Source of the DNA: Clostridia bacterium
GTDB lineage: Bacteria > Bacillota > Clostridia > Christensenellales > Borkfalkiaceae
Length of the DNA stretch: 38,735 nucleotides
Direction of reading: 5' to 3'
Assembly: GCA_029066845.1 (NCBI GenBank)
Contig: JAIEFR010000021.1
Location: 1 to 38,735, forward strand
Below are positions 16 to 38,735 of the stretch, in pieces. The notes beneath the pieces were generated by a model. The model worked only from the letters and a program-made list of their open reading frames with translations, searched no databases and was not told where the DNA came from. Position 1 is the stretch's first letter. Each line of letters opens with the position of its first letter. The position numbers were made by a program, and so were the translations under genes.

Positions 16-21
16 TATAAT
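16..21 (+). promoter_or_regulatory. -10 element of cassette 1 promoter
   Basis: TATAAT lies 45 bp before the ATG at 61, the same distance as in cassettes 2 and 3. The matching -35 would fall before base 1 and cannot be seen. The TGTGATATAATTCC context is shared almost exactly with cassette 3. Confidence 0.75.
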
Positions 22-47: not shown

Positions 48-53
48 AAGGAG
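48..53 (+). promoter_or_regulatory. Shine-Dalgarno that fixes the start upstream of the G tract
   Basis: AAGGAG sits 7 nt before the ATG at 61. It supports initiation upstream of the poly-G tract rather than at the TTG at 134, and so makes the tract part of the coding sequence. Confidence 0.85.
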
Positions 54-60
54 AAATATT

Positions 61-3000
61 ATGAAGATGTTTAAAATGACGACTGGGGGGGGGGCAAACA
101 CTTTTAAGAAATAAGCAAGCTTTAAAGAAAGCGTTGCTTTATATACTCACGCCCATATTCTGTGTCGCACTATTGTGTGGCGCAGTTTTTTCATTTTTAA
201 ATTTCAATAAAAAGGTATCCGCAAGCGCGGAAACAAATACGCCGACGGTTGAATTCGGCGCGGCAAGATACGTGGTAGAAGGCGGACCAAACTCGGCATT
301 GGCTGATAGAAATTTTTCGGCATTAAGCACAACTTCACTTGCCGGTTTTTCTAATTATCAGGCAACTTCCGGCTCAACCGGTAGCGTAAGCGTGACAATC
401 ACGTCACTTTACGGATCTGACGGAATTGTTCACAGATTTATCGTAGTTCCCGTAATAATAAAAGTTCAGGTTCCCGCTTACACTGCGTATGACGTCAGCT
501 ATACGAAAACTTTAAGTATGTCTGCCGGAGCACACGGCAAGTGTACAATGTTTTATAATAATTGGCAGGATGCGTCAAGCGGGACTTACGACGTAAGCTT
601 ACCGTTAAATATTCTTTCTTATCAGAATAGTGCCAGCGGCACCGATTGGAGCGGTAGGAGTGAAAGTGCCGAGTTCAGCAACGCAAACGGGGACGGAGTT
701 TTATTCTATAATGATACCGGCGCCCAAAAGGCATTGTCGTTATATTCTTTTTACCTTGCAAAAATAGGTGACGGTTGTACAGGCGGCTGTACTTGTACTT
801 TTAGCTTTTCAATCAGCCCCAGCGTAAATAAAGTGGTTGCAATCGGCACGACTAAAACTACGGACACGAATCCGGAAACGTATGACAAAACGGAGAAAAC
901 GTTTAACTTCACATATGACGAGCCCACCTATACGGCTTACGGTAATACGATAAACTATACAACCGCTTATAAAAATATAGAAACAACGGTTGAGGCGTTG
1001 GACTATGACGACAAGGCAATAGAAGAAACTACGTATAGTTTAAGTACAGAAGATGGAACGCTTACCGCAACCGAAGCGGGCAAATACAAAGTAAAGTTTA
1101 ATTTAAAGGCGGAAGCGAAAGCGTCCGGCATAGAATGGACTACCGGCGACACGGATGAAAAAATAATAACATTCGAAATCAAACGCAAGGCAATTTCTGT
1201 TCCCACAATATTAAATTCAACCCAGACTTATAAAGCCGACGAGTACGAATTTTATCCCGACGAAAAATTCGATGCGGATATTATGACCGTAAACGAAACC
1301 ACGTCTACTTCCAACGTGACGGGTGCAAGTATTACCTGGGACGAAACGAACAAGTCAATAAAGGCGACCGAAGCGGCGACCTATACCGTAAAATTCAAGC
1401 TGACCGATAAGAATTACATATGGAAGGTGGGAACGGTAGAAACTACCAACGAACAAAACGGCACGATAAAAATAACGCCCAAGAAACTTAAAGTGCCCAC
1501 GATAAGCGGCGACAAGGTTTATAACGGTTCGGCGCAGACCTTCCAGCTTTTCGATTTCGACAGCGGAAAGGATATTAAAGTAACCAAAGCGGAGGGAGCT
1601 AACGGTAAAACTATTACGGGCGTCGGCGGCGCTACCTGGACGGACAAGACCGAAAAGTTCGAAGCGAAGGACGCGGACACTTATACGATCACCCTTCAGC
1701 CGCGCAGTACGACCAACTACGCTTGGGACGATACTACGGGCGGCACTGGCGTGCGTACCTGTGAATTCGATATAACAAAAAAGGAAGTAAGCTTTACGTT
1801 CACCTGTTCGGAAACGAATAGCTCGTGGGAGTACGGTACGAGCGGCGTAACCGTTACGGCAACCGAGAACAGCCTTTCGACGGATAGTCTTTCCTTGGTG
1901 TTCTTTTATGATAATAAGTCAAATCTTTTGACGGGAACGCCCGACCTCGTTAACGGCAAGGTTACTGAAATAGAAATACCAGACAGCATAGCCAACGGCA
2001 AGCATACGCTGTATGCGGAGCTGAACGGCAGCACGGGCGCAAACGGCAACTATAAGCTTGCCGAAAACAAGAATTCGTTCAAGTTTAACGTTACTTCCGG
2101 TTCGATAGATTTAAGCAAAATCGAGTGGAATTACACGGTTGACGGCGCAACTGGCGGAAAGATAGAGGACGGCGACGAACTGCCTTTCAAGCTAAAGACG
2201 GGCAGCACTACGGTGGGCGTTCAGTACGAATTGAGCGCAATTATCCCCGACGATATGGACTTTATCGTCATAGATACTTCCAAGTATACCAACGGATACA
2301 ACGGGGATATTTTCAAGAATACGGTTACGGCGGACGGCAGTACATATACCTTGACGGTTGCGCTTAAATCGACGGACAACACCAAGGAATTCACCGACGA
2401 CAACGGCGACAAGTCGTCTACCTGTGATTTGACTATCACGTGGAAGATTGTCAAGGGCACGTTCGATTTATCGGGCGTAAAGTGGGAATATTATTATACC
2501 GATTCCAACGGCACGAAGCAGACCAAGGATTATACGGGCGCAATCGAATACGACGATATAAATTACGCCGTAAAGATAAAGGCAAGCACGTTGCCCGCGG
2601 GACTTACGCTTGTAGCCGACTATCAGTTCAGTGACAGGCAAAGGAACGTTGACAGCTATTCGGTGACGGCAAGTAAGTCGAACTTCAGCTGGAACCAAAA
2701 CTTCAACGAACCCGATATGTCGGCTTCAACGTTGACTTTGTCGTGGCAGATTAAGCAGAAAAACCTGTACACCAATTTCAAGTATGAAAGGGTGCAGGCA
2801 GCAAAGAGCGACGGCACGGTTGTAAGCTTCTACAACAAGGTGCTGGACATTGCCGAAAAGTATAAGAATTTCGTCAAGTACGAGTATACGGACTCTGACG
2901 GAACGGTCGTTTCCTTGCAGGAGATAATCGACGCGTTGGATATGACCTCGCCCAAAAAATATACGGTGCGCGCATACATAGACCCCGCGGCGACGGCAGC

Positions 3001-4867
3001 GGCAAACTTCGAAGTTGTCGATAACGGTTCAGATCCAACGGATACTATCACGACGGGCAGCAACAACGACCCCGTGTATGCGGTTATAGACGGCGTTATG
3101 ATAGACGGAATAAAAGCTTCGGACTACAAGGTGGTTTACGACGGTCAGCAACACTTTGACAAGCTTGAAATAGTCAGCGGTAACGGAGTGAAAATTTCCG
3201 ACTTTACCGTGACCTATTACAAGGGTGCAACCCTTACTGCGGAAAAGTTTACGGAAGGCGAATACCCCGTTAACGCAGGCGAATATATGATGGAAGTCAA
3301 GCTGGGCAGCAGTGCGCAGGACGACTATATTCTACTTCTGGACGTAATAAGAATTACGATAGAGAAGAAGGAAATCGCGCTTCCTACCGTGGGCGGAATT
3401 TTGTTCAGCGGCGAATATGTAAATCTTGCGGACTACTTGGGCGGCAGTTATGCCGAATATAAGGATATTATCAATTTAAGCGGTGACTACCTCGATATAA
3501 GGAACGTCAGCCAGAACGGATATAAGGCGCGTTTGACGTTGACAAACTCCAACTATAAGTGGGCAACTCAGACAACGGCGGAAACTGCAAGCAAAAAGCT
3601 GTTTGCGGTTAAGCTGTACGACAACGCGCCGGAAGTGCTGGACGATGCAACCGCAGAATTGAAGTGGAATATCGCGCCTCTGGTTGTGGACGTGAGCGAG
3701 ATGTGGAACAAGAGCGGCAAGGAGGGCGCAACGCTCAATTTGCCCGAGAATATCACCAAGCTTATAAATGCAGAAACGCTGAGCGTACTGTACAAGTACT
3801 ACGACGACGCGGACCAGTACATAGAAACTCCCGAGTTGAAGGGCGGCAAGTCGTTCAGGGTAGAAGCCGTGTTCGGCGGAATAGACGCGGAGAGCGGCAA
3901 CGTGCTGTTCAAGACTGCGGACGGCAATTTCGGAACGGTCAGCGACAAGATAAGCTATACCGTGCCTCAAAGCGCCGCAGCGGCGTTCCTGGGAAGCACT
4001 CTAAGCTTCTTAAAGGCAAACTGGCTGTGGCTGGTTATTGCCGCAGTTGCGTTAATACTTCTCATACTTATAATTGCGCTTGCGGCGCGTTCGGCAAAGA
4101 AAAAGCGTATCCGTGAAGAACAGCGCAGGCTGGAAGAAAAGGAAGAGAAAAAGCGCGAGCAGGAAGAACGCGAGCGCAAGGAAGAGGAGCGCAGGCAGCG
4201 TGAAGACGAACGCCGCCGCGAGGAGCGCGAAGAGCGTATGGCGGCGCGTATGGCTCAGCCCCAGATGATGCCGCAAATGCCCCAGATGATGGGCGGGCAG
4301 ATGCCTCAGTCTATGCCCCAGCAGGCACAGTCTATGTCGGCGGGCGGCGCAAGCTCTAACGAGATAGCCGAGCTCAAAGCCGAAATGGCGGCTATGAAAG
4401 CAACGCAGGATATGGCAAAGGAAATTGCCGAGCTGAGAATGGAGGTTATGCGCGCGGAGCAGAATGCGGTTATGCGCAGCGACGTAAACGCATTGCGCTT
4501 CGGCGGCGAACAGGCGGTCGGCGGCGTTACCTTGCAGGCGTTGACCGAAATTATAAGGACGGAGGTCAAGAACGCTTTGGCTAACGAAAAGGCTGCGGCT
4601 CAGAGCGCACCCGTTGCGCCCGAAAGCAGTGCGGCAACGCAGGTACCTCCCGATGCGGTAATGACTACTGTGACGACTACCAAGATAGACACGACCAAAA
4701 AGCCCGCGCAACCCGCGCAGGCGGCGCCTTCGGGCAGGACGGTTGTGCGTAACTTCGTTGCGCCTATGCCCGTAGACGACGGCAGGGTATTCGACGTGGG
4801 CGGCTTCTATACCCCCGCGGACCCGATAACCGATATGGGCTTCACGGACGACGAGAATAAGGACTAA
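61..4867 (+). CDS. Giant phase-variable surface protein, cassette 1 (OFF in this sequence)
   Basis: The ATG at 61 has a good Shine-Dalgarno and opens with MKMFKMTTGGG. With 10 Gs (85-94) it runs into a TAA at 112-114. With 9 or 12 Gs it joins, with no stop, the long frame that is open to 4867. The restored protein would be about 1,600 residues: a charged n-region, a hydrophobic stretch around LLYILTPIFCVALLCGAVF, and a likely cleavage site after VSASA. Then comes a distal ectodomain (bases ~240-900) with a CxxxCxC cluster, followed by 80-100-residue Ig/MBG-like repeats with TYTV and NYxW signatures (from ~1180). A membrane-proximal domain ends in VPQSAAAAF, and one TM helix lies at ~4021-4089. 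The ~255-residue cytoplasmic tail has a Glu/Arg/Lys-rich helix, a Met/Pro/Gln linker, a coiled coil and a conserved end (RNFVAPMPVDDGRVFDVGGF). There is no LPXTG motif. The function is unknown; an adhesin or surface receptor is an inference. Confidence 0.85.
85..94 (+). repeat. G10 homopolymer, putative phase-variation tract of cassette 1
   Basis: There are ten consecutive Gs right after ACG ACT, codons 7-8 of the reading frame from 61. Ten is out of frame; nine or twelve restores the full reading frame. Long G tracts inside 5' coding sequence are a classic substrate for slipped-strand mispairing. Confidence 0.85.
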
Positions 4868-4913: not shown

Positions 4914-4947
4914 AAAAGCCGCGCGGCAATTACGCCGCGCGGCTTTT
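4914..4947. terminator. Bidirectional rho-independent terminator
   Basis: A stem AAAAGCCGCGCGGC / GCCGCGCGGCTTTT closes a 6-nt AATTAC loop. It has A and T runs on both flanks and lies between the convergent ends of cassette 1 (4867) and the helicase gene (4950). The same GC core is reused after cassette 2. Confidence 0.9.
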
Positions 4948-6277: not shown

Positions 6278-6306
6278 TTGAATTTTTCATTTATCTATGA
6301 TATAAT
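6278..6306 (+). promoter_or_regulatory. Sigma-A type promoter of cassette 2
   Basis: TTGAAT (6278-6283), a 17-bp spacer and TATAAT (6301-6306) lie 45 bp before the ATG at 6346. A Shine-Dalgarno GAGGAA at 6334-6339 is 6 nt before the start. Confidence 0.82.
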
Positions 6307-6345: not shown

Positions 6346-9300
6346 ATGAAGATGTTAAAATTCACTACTGGGGGGGGCAAGCACTTTTAAGAAGTAAGCA
6401 AAGTGCCGTAAAGCGCGCGTTGCTTTATATACTCACGCCCATATTCTGTGTCGCACTATGTGTCGGCGCAGTTTTTTTGTGCCAAAACAGTAAAAAGGTA
6501 ACGGCTAACGCGGCGTCGGCGGTTTTGAACGATTCAACCGTAAAACCCGTGTTAACGTTCGGGGATATAAAATATAATCAAACGTCAACCATTGTAGCCT
6601 GGGGTGCTAAGGATAGCGATTCAAAAAGTTTTACTTATACCAATCATATGTCCGCTACGAATCCGGACAGTACAGCTATCCACTGTACTGCAACAACCAG
6701 CGGCGGAAATTCCGGCACAGTTACTACGTCTTTCAATATGACTTCTTCATCGAGAAGCAAAATCATAGCCGTTCCCATCTATCTGACTTTTGATTTGCCT
6801 GCAAATACCGTATATTATATAAAGTGGAATTGGTCGTTTTCCAGCATTGTAACCAACCAAGAGCACGCAATGCATCAATTTCAAGATTCATTCGATAACT
6901 TTGACTTATTGTTATATGGAGAATATTACGGTAACTGGTCAGCTTATGCAGCAGGTCCAAACGGCGATACAATAGTTTATAACAACACTGATACGGATAT
7001 AACGAATTATAGACTGTATTCGATGTACTATGCTTATGCTAATAATGCGACTAGCGGAACGCGTAGCTTTACGTTCAATATTTCGGTTGATCTTTTACAG
7101 GGACCGGAAATCGAAGCGCCGTCCACGGTCGGCAGTGTTGAAAAAATTTATACGGGAGATCCTTTACAGTTTGACTTTAAATATGCGGGCACGCCTCAGG
7201 TTGAGGAAGCTTATAGTTTTGATAGGGGTATTAAGGATACAGTAACTTACGACAAGGCTTACGAGTGCGTTGAAGCCTCGGTTACGGGTATCGATTTCGA
7301 CGGCAACCCCATAACGATAGACGACAGCACGGTGGAGCTGAACGGCACGGAAAACGGAAAAGGAACATTTAAACCTACCCAAGCTGGTAATTATAAGGTT
7401 AAACTTAAAGTTAAAGATTCGTTTGTGGCAAGCGGCGTAAAGTTCCAGGGCGGCATAACCGAAAAGGAGTTAGATTTCACCGTAAAGAGAAAGACGGTGG
7501 ACGCGCCTTCGATTACCGACTCGACGAAAACCTATAAAGCGGCGGAGTACGAGTTCGCTCCCGACGCAAAATTCGACGCGGATATTATGACCGTAAACGA
7601 GTCGGCTTCTTCTTCCGACGTGACGGGCGTAAATATCACCTGGGACGATACTAGCAAGATAATTAAGGCGACGGACGCTGCGACCTATACGGTCAAATTC
7701 AAGCTGACCGATAAAAACTACGTCTGGAAGGTTGGAACTACGGAAGTTGCTACCGACCAGAGCGCCACTATTAAGATTACGCCCAAGGTGCTTGACGTGC
7801 CGCAGGCAGTCACCACAGATTATAACGGCGGCGACCAGTCTTTAAAAACGCTTACTACAAAGCCTGGCTGGTACGATCAGTCGGTGTACACCGACCCCAC
7901 GATTTTAACGGTTGCTCCCGCAACGGTAAAGGCTGCAAACGAAAGCGGTCACACGGTTACCGTAACGCTGGTATCCAAAAACTACGCGTGGGCGAATAAG
8001 TCAAGCAATTCTTCCGCGGCAAGAACTTTTGCCTTTAAGGTAAACAAAAAGGAGCTGGACGTTGAGTTCGAGGATAAGGACGGTCTGCAAGTTGCAAAAT
8101 TTGCGGACGAAAGCCAGATTTTTATAACCGACAAGGACGGTACGGGCGCGCCGACGTTTACGCTTAAAACCAAATATTACGAGGAAGGAAACAGCCCCAA
8201 CAGCGCGGTAGACGCGCCTACAGGACTTGGCGACTGGGTTGCAATGGCTGTGCTTGAAGGCACGGGTGCGGAAAACTATAAGGTTGACGCGGAACAGTCC
8301 TTCAACGCGGCTAAAAAGAAGGTTGCATACCCCGTGCTTAACAGTGACAAAACGCTTGGTTACAACGGCAGTATGCAGGAATTCACCTTTACGGGCTTTG
8401 ACAGTGCAACTATGAACACGCCCGTAAAACCCAACGGCGCGGACAGCTTTGACGGCACTACTTTAAAGGCGACCAACGCAGGCAAGTACACGCCCGTGTT
8501 TACGCTTAAAGACCCTACGCTTTACGAGTGGAGCGGCACTGCGCCCGAAGCGGTTGAAATTACGGCCAAGTCGGTAACCATAATAGCCGACATCAACAAC
8601 AAGACGACGTGGGAAAAGGGTGAAGCTGTCAGCCTGACCTTTACCGCATACGCGCTTTCCGGCGAAAGCTTGCAGCTTGCGGCAACCTCTCAAAAGGAAG
8701 GTTTTGCCGCTACTGATATTGCCGTAACCAACAACGGCGACGGAACGCATACGGTTACTATTCCCGCAACGGCTACAAGGGGCAGTTATACGCTTACCGT
8801 AAAGGTGGCGGACAGCTCTTCCAACTACGTTGCGGCAAGTGAAATTACGCACGCGTTTACCATAACGGCGGCGGGCGCGGCGTTGGAAGAAAACGAGCTC
8901 GTATGGGTGATAGGCGGAAAAAATTATACGGTTGATGACCTGAACGATGACGGCGTTCTCGAAATAGAGTACACGGGGCAGAGCATATCGCCGACGGTGC
9001 ATAATGCGCCGCTTGTTGCCGCAGGGGTTAAGGTTGACGACAACGGCTACGGCGGCGACACTTCCGCAACGGACGTGGACGATTACGAAATTACCGTGCA
9101 TATTGTTGCGGACGGTGACGACGTTGCCTTTGACAAGACTTTCACACTGAAATATAAAATCGTGCCCAAGAAGCTCGATTTGTCCAATGCGGTTTGGCAG
9201 TGGCAGTACGAAGACGGCGGGGAAGAGTGGAAAACTCTGTCTGACAACGCTATGCCGTCGTTCGACAATAAAGCAGTATCAGTACGCATTTCGCCCGACT

Positions 9301-11564
9301 ATATGGCAAGCTTAGGGCTTACGACGGACGATTACAGCGTTACTTACAGCCATAACGGTAACCTGACCGAAAAGGGCGATAAAACGAGTACGGCAAAGGT
9401 CACCATAGCCAACTCCAACTACGTGGCGGAGGACGGCGGCGATTATATCGAAGTTCCCAAGAACTGGAAAATTACCGCAAAGTCGTTAGCCTATACGTGG
9501 GACGAGAAGGGACAGACCATTGCGGGACCCGACGGCAGGTCGTTTGAGATTTACGCAATAGTGTTTACGGACGGTAATACGTATACGGACTACTATGAGT
9601 ATTACTTTACCGTTGACGGTGTTGAGGGCGAAATGACGCGCGACGAGCTTGAAGCTTACGTTGCCGAAAACTGGTCTGAAACCGCGCCGGTAAGCGGAAA
9701 GGTTTACGTCAGAATGAAAGCTGACGCGTCCGACGAGTTTGTTATAAATTCGGGTTACCGCAGCTTTACGACGGGCACGCCCAAGACCGCGCTTACCGTT
9801 GCGGTTACGGGCAGCGGCGCGGAGTACGGTCTGGTTGATTTTAAGTTCAGCGTTGTAAGAGGAACTTCGGACGAAAGGGCGCGTACCACGGTTGTAATTT
9901 CCGGCGGCGCGCTTACCGAGGCGAAGAGCTATGACGGCAACGCCCCCGAACTGGTTGCGTTTGTAAACGGTCTGGGCGTGGGCAAATACGTTATTACCGT
10001 CAGTCTGAAAGCGGCTAGCGAAAGCTCCTACGTGCTGACCAAGAGCGTGTTCGACTTTGAAGTTTTAATAAGAAAAGTTATCGTTCCTCAGGTCACGAAG
10101 GATATAACGTATAACGGCGCATATATAAACATTGCCGACTATCTGGACAGCAATTATGACGCGAATATTATGAGTATGCTCAGCGGCTATACCAACAAGA
10201 CCGCGGGTGCATACACCGTGATTTTCAAGCTTCCCGACAGCAATTATATGTGGGTAGAGCCTACGAGTGCGGAGCCTATGAGCAAGCTGTTTGCAAAGGT
10301 GTTGTTTGTGAATGAAATCAGCATTGACAACTCCGAGCTTACCGCAACTTTGGGCTGGACTATCAACAAGATAGTGCTTTCTACGGATAGCTGGAATCTG
10401 AGCGGCAAGGAGGGCGTTAGCCTTAACGCGCTTGCCGATTATCAGAGTATGATAACGGCAAACGGACTTGAAGTTGCGATAGGTTACAGATACTACGACA
10501 CCAACGGCAACCTTATAGAAGAGCCTGTTCTGAAGGGCGGCGATAAGTATATTGTCGAGGCATATCTTGCAGGTGAGGACGCGGTGAACTTCGAGTTTGC
10601 TGACGGCACGGGTGACAAGAGTGTGTCCGCACAGCAGGAATACACCGTGCCCCAGAGTGCGGCGGCTAAGTTCTTCGGTAATGCGGTCGGCTTTGCAAAA
10701 GCCAACTTATTGTGGCTGATAATTGCGGCGGCGGTGTTGTTGTTCCTCATAATACTTATCTGCATAATCGCAAGCGCGAAGAAGAAAAAGCGTAAGCGCG
10801 AGGAGCTTGCCGAACAGCGCAGGCTGGAAGAAAAGGAGGAACGCAAGCGCGAGCAGGAGGAACGCCGCTTAGAGCGCGAGGAGCGTATGGCGCGTATGTC
10901 ACAAATGCAGGCGGCGCCTCAGCCCCAGTATATCCCCCAGCCTATGCCTCAGCCTCAGCCCCAGTACACACCTCAGACGCAGGCACAACCTGCGGCGTCT
11001 GGCGGCGGAACGGTAAGCGAAGCGCAATTCCTGCAGATGCAGGCTGAACTCAAAGCCGAAATTTCGGCGTTGAAGGCAGAGCAGTCGGCAAAGGAAATTG
11101 CCGCGCTGAGAGCGGAGGTCGCTATGCGCGACGACATAAGCGTGTTGCGCAGCGAGGGCAGAGGACAGATGCAGTCGGGTATGAACGTGGAAGCTATGAC
11201 CGAGATTATGACTATGGCACTTAAAAACGTGCTGACGTCTGCAACGCAGCAGGTCATTGCGGGACAGCCCGCACAGCCCGCGCAACTGACGGACGGCAGT
11301 GCAAATGCTTCCGCGGCAACGCAGGTTCCCCCCGACGCGGTTATGACCACCGTGACTACCACCAAGATAGACACGACCAAGAAAGCCGCGCAACCTGCGC
11401 AGACCAACGACCGCACGGCTCCCGCAGGCAGGACGATAGTGCGTAACTTCGTTGCGCCTATGCCCGTGGACGACGGCAGAGTGTTCGACGTGGGCGGCTT
11501 CTATACGCCCGCTGACCCCGTAGCCGATATAGGCTTGACCGAGGATACGGACAAAAACGAATAA
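6346..11564 (+). CDS. Giant phase-variable surface protein, cassette 2 (OFF in this sequence)
   Basis: The ATG at 6346 (MKMLKFTTGG) is followed by eight Gs, and translation stops at the TAA at 6388-6390. One extra G joins it to the frame open to 11564, giving about 1,740 residues. The restored N-terminus has a basic segment, the h-region LLYILTPIFCVALCVGAVF and an AxA-type cleavage site after VTANA. The distal ectodomain differs from cassette 1 and lacks its Cys cluster. Bases ~7480-7790 encode a repeat closely matching cassette 1 (~1180-1490, shared FDADIMTVNE and ATYTVKFKLTDKNY). The membrane-proximal domain (SGKEG, LKGGDKYIVEAYL), the TM helix (~10708-10780) and the ~260-residue tail are conserved: an ER/K-rich helix, a Pro/Gln linker, a coiled coil, TTTKIDTTKK and VFDVGGFYTPADP. 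This is a paralogue of cassette 1. Its biochemical function is unknown. Confidence 0.85.
6370..6377 (+). repeat. G8 homopolymer, putative phase-variation tract of cassette 2
   Basis: Eight Gs follow ACT ACT at codons 7-8. The tract begins 69 bp after the start of the -10, the same offset as in the other cassettes. Nine Gs would restore the reading frame. Confidence 0.82.
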
Positions 11565-38630: not shown

Positions 38631-38735
38631 ATGAAACTGTTTAAAATGACGACGGGGGGGGGGGGCAAGGAGTTTTAGTGTGTTAGCAAGGTGCCTGAAA
38701 GCGCGGGTTGCTTTATATAAACACGCCAATTTTAT
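38631..38735 (+). pseudogene. 5' end of a third poly-G cassette, cut by the window edge, possibly a remnant
   Basis: The ATG at 38631 opens MKLFKMTTGG like cassette 1 and stops at a TAG at 38676-38678. The aligned frame (CAA at 38666 onward) matches cassette 2 codon by codon for 15 codons. It has TAG where cassette 2 has AAG and TGA where it has GTA, then LLYINTPIL in place of LLYILTPIF. So restoring the G number alone would not give the cassette 1/2 product. Another frame (GCA AGG AGT) is open to the window end but is not similar. A decayed copy or a silent donor are both possible. Confidence 0.55.
38654..38665 (+). repeat. G12 homopolymer of cassette 3
   Basis: There are twelve Gs, of which the first completes ACG, leaving 11 after codon 8. 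This is out of frame relative to the homologous position in cassettes 1 and 2, which needs a multiple of three. Confidence 0.75.

Follow-up and report, generated by a model that had tools for sequence, protein, structure and literature searches.

A poly-G tract behind the start codon as a putative phase switch for a family of giant surface proteins in a Clostridia bacterium

Frame switching by poly-G tracts is a standard contingency mechanism, and in the poly-G/C genes of Campylobacter, Helicobacter, Neisseria and Bordetella it is the length of the homopolymer that sets expression. The Opa proteins of Neisseria are encoded by many unlinked copies, in each of which a repeat in the signal-peptide region switches translation, and the copies recombine with one another. 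Listeria is a Gram-positive genus to be considered beside these. Homopolymer phase variation is the subject of PMC2823697 and PMC1891110, and frameshifts at a 5' homopolymer in Listeria inlA are described in PMC2831843. In passages of a 2025 review that deal with Clostridia, these appear as Clostridioides difficile only, with invertible promoters and CmrRST (PMC11868660). A literature search, whose scope excluded most subscription journals and all bioRxiv preprints, returned no description of homopolymer phase variation in the lineage studied here. The mechanism proposed below is thus of a known kind, while the family of giant surface proteins with poly-G tracts seems to be undescribed.

The genes analyzed here resemble opa in their many copies with a 5' repeat near the signal peptide and, probably, in recombining with each other. 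Opa, however, has a pentamer repeat and small outer-membrane barrels, whereas here G tracts precede giant proteins with a C-terminal transmembrane segment and a charged tail. With the loci of Campylobacter, Helicobacter, Neisseria and Bordetella they share a long homopolymer in or before the 5' coding region and several loci per genome; unlike those, they occur in Clostridia with spoVA genes, where a single homologous module heads about 19 giant proteins and where MutS and MutL are present. Listeria inlA is likewise a surface-protein gene with a 5' homopolymer, but the run is poly-A and the gene a single one (cited section of PMC2831843). C. difficile shares clostridial phase variation, but by site-specific inversion (review passages in PMC11868660), and in three cassette regions of 411-501 bases we found no pair of inverted repeats of at least 12 nt, as an inverton would have. 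A pilE/vls-type arrangement, with one expression site and promoterless donors, is not what we see either, as 10 of 11 complete copies carry a -10 box, a ribosome site and an ATG of their own (by eye).

The window, by which we mean the whole analyzed stretch of 38,735 nucleotides, is the complete contig C14 of a 25-contig, 1.56 Mb genome from an uncultured Clostridia lineage. It contains genes of the SpoVAD and SpoVAC/SpoVAEB sporulation families and three cassettes with the following features:

16..21, plus strand: -10 box TATAAT of cassette 1, from sequence; the -35 box falls off the contig
48..53, plus strand: Shine-Dalgarno AAGGAG of cassette 1, from sequence
61..84, plus strand: ATG and first 8 codons (MKMFKMTT) of cassette 1, from sequence
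85..94, plus strand: G10 tract of cassette 1, out of frame as assembled
95..4867, plus strand: giant surface-protein frame of cassette 1 with signal peptide, variable ectodomain, one transmembrane segment and charged tail (features by eye)
4914..4947, plus strand: terminator-like hairpin 3' of cassette 1 (by eye)
6278..6306, plus strand: promoter-like site of cassette 2, TTGAAT-17-TATAAT (2 sites in the region vs 0.9 expected in shuffles)
6346..6369, plus strand: ATG and first 8 codons (MKMLKFTT) of cassette 2
6370..6377, plus strand: G8 tract of cassette 2, out of frame as assembled
6378..11564, plus strand: giant surface-protein frame of cassette 2, 1,728 codons after the tract
38631..38653, plus strand: start and leader of cassette 3
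38654..38665, plus strand: G12 run of cassette 3, whose first G completes codon 8; the contig ends 70 bp away

A preliminary description had read cassette 1 as a -10 box, Shine-Dalgarno sequence, ATG, G10 and early stop, and each of these elements was located, the stop being a TAA at codon 18 of the ATG frame. The giant frame of 1,577 codons that it placed in another register was reproduced: as assembled, the frame is out of register with the ATG, yields 1,577 amino acids when counted from a TTG at 134, continues for 1,590 codons after the tract and, being open from nt 80, spans 1,595 codons from stop to stop. The AxA site it named corresponds, in our by-eye reading, to KVSASA-E. Cassette 1 is no isolated case but one among about 19 such genes. 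In cassette 3 the letters beyond G12 differ from every other copy, which makes the frame logic unreadable there.

Across the genome, the module pattern occurs at 12 places, with no match in the reversed control (a looser version gave 6 control matches). A profile of the conserved tail gave 26 matches, and the 25 of them that were listed correspond to 24 genes, namely 11 complete genes headed by the module (1,497-1,883 codons), eight genes that are cut by a contig end and five family genes with a fixed start, which begin MKIKRKTF and thereby differ from the module. The eight cut genes have the same signal peptide, and in each of them the contig stops at the tract or no more than about 30 nt from it. 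Taken together, the family frames sum to ~41,000 codons, a figure that contains a few artefact codons and corresponds to about 8% of the genome. In all 11 complete copies the long frame begins immediately behind the tract and always in one register, and the remaining two frames close 3 and 5 codons past it. A slippable homopolymer lies in the 5' coding region of each of the 11, the tract behind codon 8 measuring G8 once, G9 three times, G10 six times and G11 once (C21 is counted as G10, one of its eleven G's being assigned to codon 8). Both frame states occur, with 3 of the 11 copies in frame, all of them G9. Runs of G9 or longer gave 106 overlapping matches in the genome. Among the 100 listed are 11 module runs (cassette 3 included, cassette 2 with its G8 not) and, outside the module, one at C12:73041 within a promoter-like spacer, besides the long runs in which contigs C9 and C12 end; the six unlisted matches equal the number expected from the tracts of C21, C22 and C24.

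The spacer run is a G10 at L048:7042-7051 (G000:C12:73041-73050) inside a promoter-like TTGACA-17-TAACAT (by eye), and it precedes a gene for a 587-aa lipoprotein-like protein. It is possibly a transcriptional contingency locus; ten relatives gave no counterpart beyond a 38-base match in G010.

The family proteins are laid out as signal peptide, ectodomain, one transmembrane segment, charged coil and a tail with the motif VRNxVAPMPVDDGRxFDVGGFY, signal peptide, ectodomain, transmembrane segment and charged part being assigned by eye. Pairwise identity averages 70% over the first 48 alignment columns, falls to 22% in the ectodomain and rises again, to 46% beside the membrane and 63% for the tail, a profile that has the usual look of a diversifying, presumably surface-located family. 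Searches of the 11 copies against Pfam and NCBIfam gave weak or local matches only, with Big_3 and DUF6273 each in 2 of 11. Matches to eukaryotic families in the transmembrane segment and charged tail were put down to composition. Neither the membrane-proximal profile nor the cassette 2 protein found a sequence match among solved structures, and of 600 stretches of viral contigs that fit the pattern of tail profile A1 none encodes a relative.

The five fixed-start paralogs (L109, L114, L118, L119, L121) have a long leader with a terminator-like hairpin just 5' of the ribosome site. The relatives L086, L089 and L093 belong to the same observation. Across 7 sequences, 6 of 18 predicted pairs carry changes on both sides, and the 5' side of the hairpin could pair with a GUACC stretch (by eye). 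The leader may be an attenuator-like RNA. In Rfam, one match passed the threshold for the five loci, an L10 leader in L119; low-threshold matches on six loci were taken as chance.

The preliminary description had proposed that related genomes be searched for the same start-plus-tract layout, and the module was indeed found in three related species. The tail profile was run on 93 genomes of the genus, ours being one of them, and matched in 47 at E<=0.001, with at least 6 matches in 11 of the 47 and 1-3 weak ones in the others. G023, G105 and G118 stand out with 16, 24 and 19 matches, many of them strong, and contain ten tracts with full leader, 8-11 G's long and in frame in 3 of 10; one of the ten, a G8 in G023:C100, is followed by unrelated letters near a contig end. 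The 45 named family loci come from three MAGs titled Clostridia. A start-plus-G9 pattern occurs in 9 of the 93 genomes, the two control matches both lying in one other genome. The matches in G043, G001 and G131 proved to be other sequence, which leaves six genomes, so that the pattern search did not find the module in 87 of 93. Two genomes, G010 (tracts of 11 and 10) and G040 (10 and 10), carry a diverged module with the same frame logic in 4 of 4 and none in frame, although one of the four, G010:C341, is visible for 35 codons only; a contig of G020 begins just past an apparent tract of the diverged type. In G010 (L125-L132) there are 28 tail-profile matches, several being possible per gene and 25 of 55 candidates having been scored, and all eight genes examined have a fixed start without a G run, in addition to two poly-G genes found by pattern.

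Copies that were permanently off would be expected to decay. Instead, 1,590-1,883 codons stay open under constraint: in the last 330 residues every one of the 28 pairs formed by out-of-frame copies has pN below pS, with a median dN/dS of 0.27, as do all 55 pairs overall, and the out-of-frame copies are under purifying selection in this region. The stops in both off frames recur in all 31 cassette rows covered (30 distinct places, as L046 and L112 are the same place; cassette 3 and G023:C100 do not fit the pattern and are left out). They persist while codon 6 changes between AAT, AGT, TCT and CGT (N, S or R), and random synonymous recoding creates both in 7-10% of cases; since shared ancestry or gene conversion may explain their conservation, we regard it as suggestive only.

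We consider it very likely that these genes form a phase-variable surface-protein family switched by slipped-strand mispairing, with recombination between copies in addition. The on/off switch that the preliminary description had proposed for one tract is supported by the shared frame logic and differing tract lengths of the 11 complete paralogs, by selection on out-of-frame copies and by the occurrence of the module in three related species. To the extent that the contigs reach, every gene has a promoter, ribosome site and terminator of its own, and start codon, seven further codons, G tract and signal peptide follow one another. Slipped-strand mispairing during replication would change the tract length; with nine G's, as in the six in-frame copies seen, ribosomes would run on into the giant protein, and otherwise translation would end 3 or 5 codons behind the tract. 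About 19 genes switching independently could give many surface types per clone, recombination between copies would probably re-pair leaders, signal peptides and ectodomains, and the role may be evasion of host antibodies, phages or competitors. Because MutS1 and MutL are both present in the genome, any switching occurs despite mismatch repair and may be slower than in repair-deficient species.

An alternative that is compatible with phase variation, and unlikely as the main account, regards the copies as an archive of gene-conversion donors, with the tract as the junction and switching as secondary. Mantel tests on segment distances in the 11 copies found 8 of 10 comparisons uncorrelated at p 0.05, and the distances of leader and signal peptide are unrelated across the tract (r=0.04), as an archive would predict. 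Correlation was seen for ectodomain and membrane-proximal segment (r=0.28, p=0.04) and for leader and tail (r=0.38, p=0.009), the latter speaking against an archive; 11 copies give the test little power, and the leader of C21 enters it with 28 nt only. In favor of exchange, pooled synonymous divergence is 0.17-0.19 near the tract and thus about 3 times lower than the tail median of 0.59. Furthermore, the sequence downstream of cassette 2 has syntenic counterparts in three relatives (88-89%), but the gene at this site in the relatives has a tail closer to cassette 1 (rows examined), and in G118 the flank on the upstream side adjoins another leader, with G10 in place of G8. With different leaders at syntenic sites, the family gave no clean length pair of the same allele. 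As segment distances are mostly uncorrelated and the cassette 2 site differs in relatives, exchange between copies is probable, and the sequences suggest a mosaic. Against an archive of donors, all complete copies but the cut C21 show a -10 box (10 of 11), and each has a start and a terminator-like hairpin (by eye).

Very unlikely, in our view, is an error of sequencing or assembly that hides one fixed in-frame length in every tract and makes the genes constitutive. At least 12 of 50 contig ends, both window ends among them, are no more than about 100 nt away from a cassette start, and artefact-like G/C runs of about 10-50 stand at contig ends beside cassettes (C9, C12; L058, L073, L087, L090); these are probably poly-G sequencing artefacts extended by assemblers from real tracts. 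Internal tracts, in contrast, are flanked by clean sequence on both sides, lengths vary from cassette to cassette within each of four assemblies, and G8-G11 behind a start codon is unusual in itself, all of which weakens this alternative. Programmed slippage of RNA polymerase or ribosome on the G run, by which every copy would make some full protein and DNA length would be minor, equally predicts intact, selected out-of-frame copies; we hold it to be highly improbable, as tract lengths vary among copies with no single slippery length and both off frames are closed at once. Programmed slippage of such a kind is known mainly on A/T runs. Least probable is an untranslated tract with translation from the downstream TTG (134 in cassette 1), which the preliminary description had set against its own proposal: all 11 complete copies have the TTG, and upstream of it substitutions show only a weak bias (pS 0.185, pN 0.155, a weak test), but the stretch from tract to TTG (14 or 15 codons including TTG) keeps frame and K/R residues and varies in length by a whole codon only, and a good ribosome site and ATG lie 5' of the tract while none is evident by eye before the TTG.

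Going beyond phase variation with recombination, we tentatively put forward, as a possibility that falls short of being probable, a two-layer engine of antigen diversity, in which a portable module of promoter, ATG, poly-G and signal peptide would switch about 19 giant surface proteins independently and also serve as a homology block for ectodomain swaps.

In the order as a whole, the start-plus-G9 pattern occurs in 25 of 396 genomes (own included) and its reversed control in 6 of 396. Because a frame of at least 200 codons follows in 10 of the 18 order loci printed out, many of these matches represent no evident switch. The 0.9 Mb genome G408, from another family of the order, has four listed poly-G start modules (L196-L199) with tracts of 10-12 ahead of a QPYCLTK-like sequence, and DUF6273 is present in both proteins scanned (2 of 4); if the first ATG is taken as the start, one of the four is in frame, one state depending on the ATG chosen. 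Two similar, secreted-looking proteins (by eye) from two species, L189 and L190 (G187, G454), have one G10 out of frame and one G9 in frame behind the start, and a prepilin-like protein (by eye), L153 (G131:C3), has an in-frame G9 soon after its start.

If the reading as phase variation is true, about 8% of a small genome is given to switchable or related surface proteins, and an investment of this size would point to strong pressure from host antibodies, phages or competitors. Since DUF6273 proteins in a further family of the order also carry poly-G start modules, the lineage, like Campylobacter, may depend on contingency loci of the homopolymer type. The range of such loci would extend to a lineage of Clostridia, the clostridial phase variation in the literature we found being by DNA inversion, and tract length would be a simple marker that can be counted in existing metagenomes.
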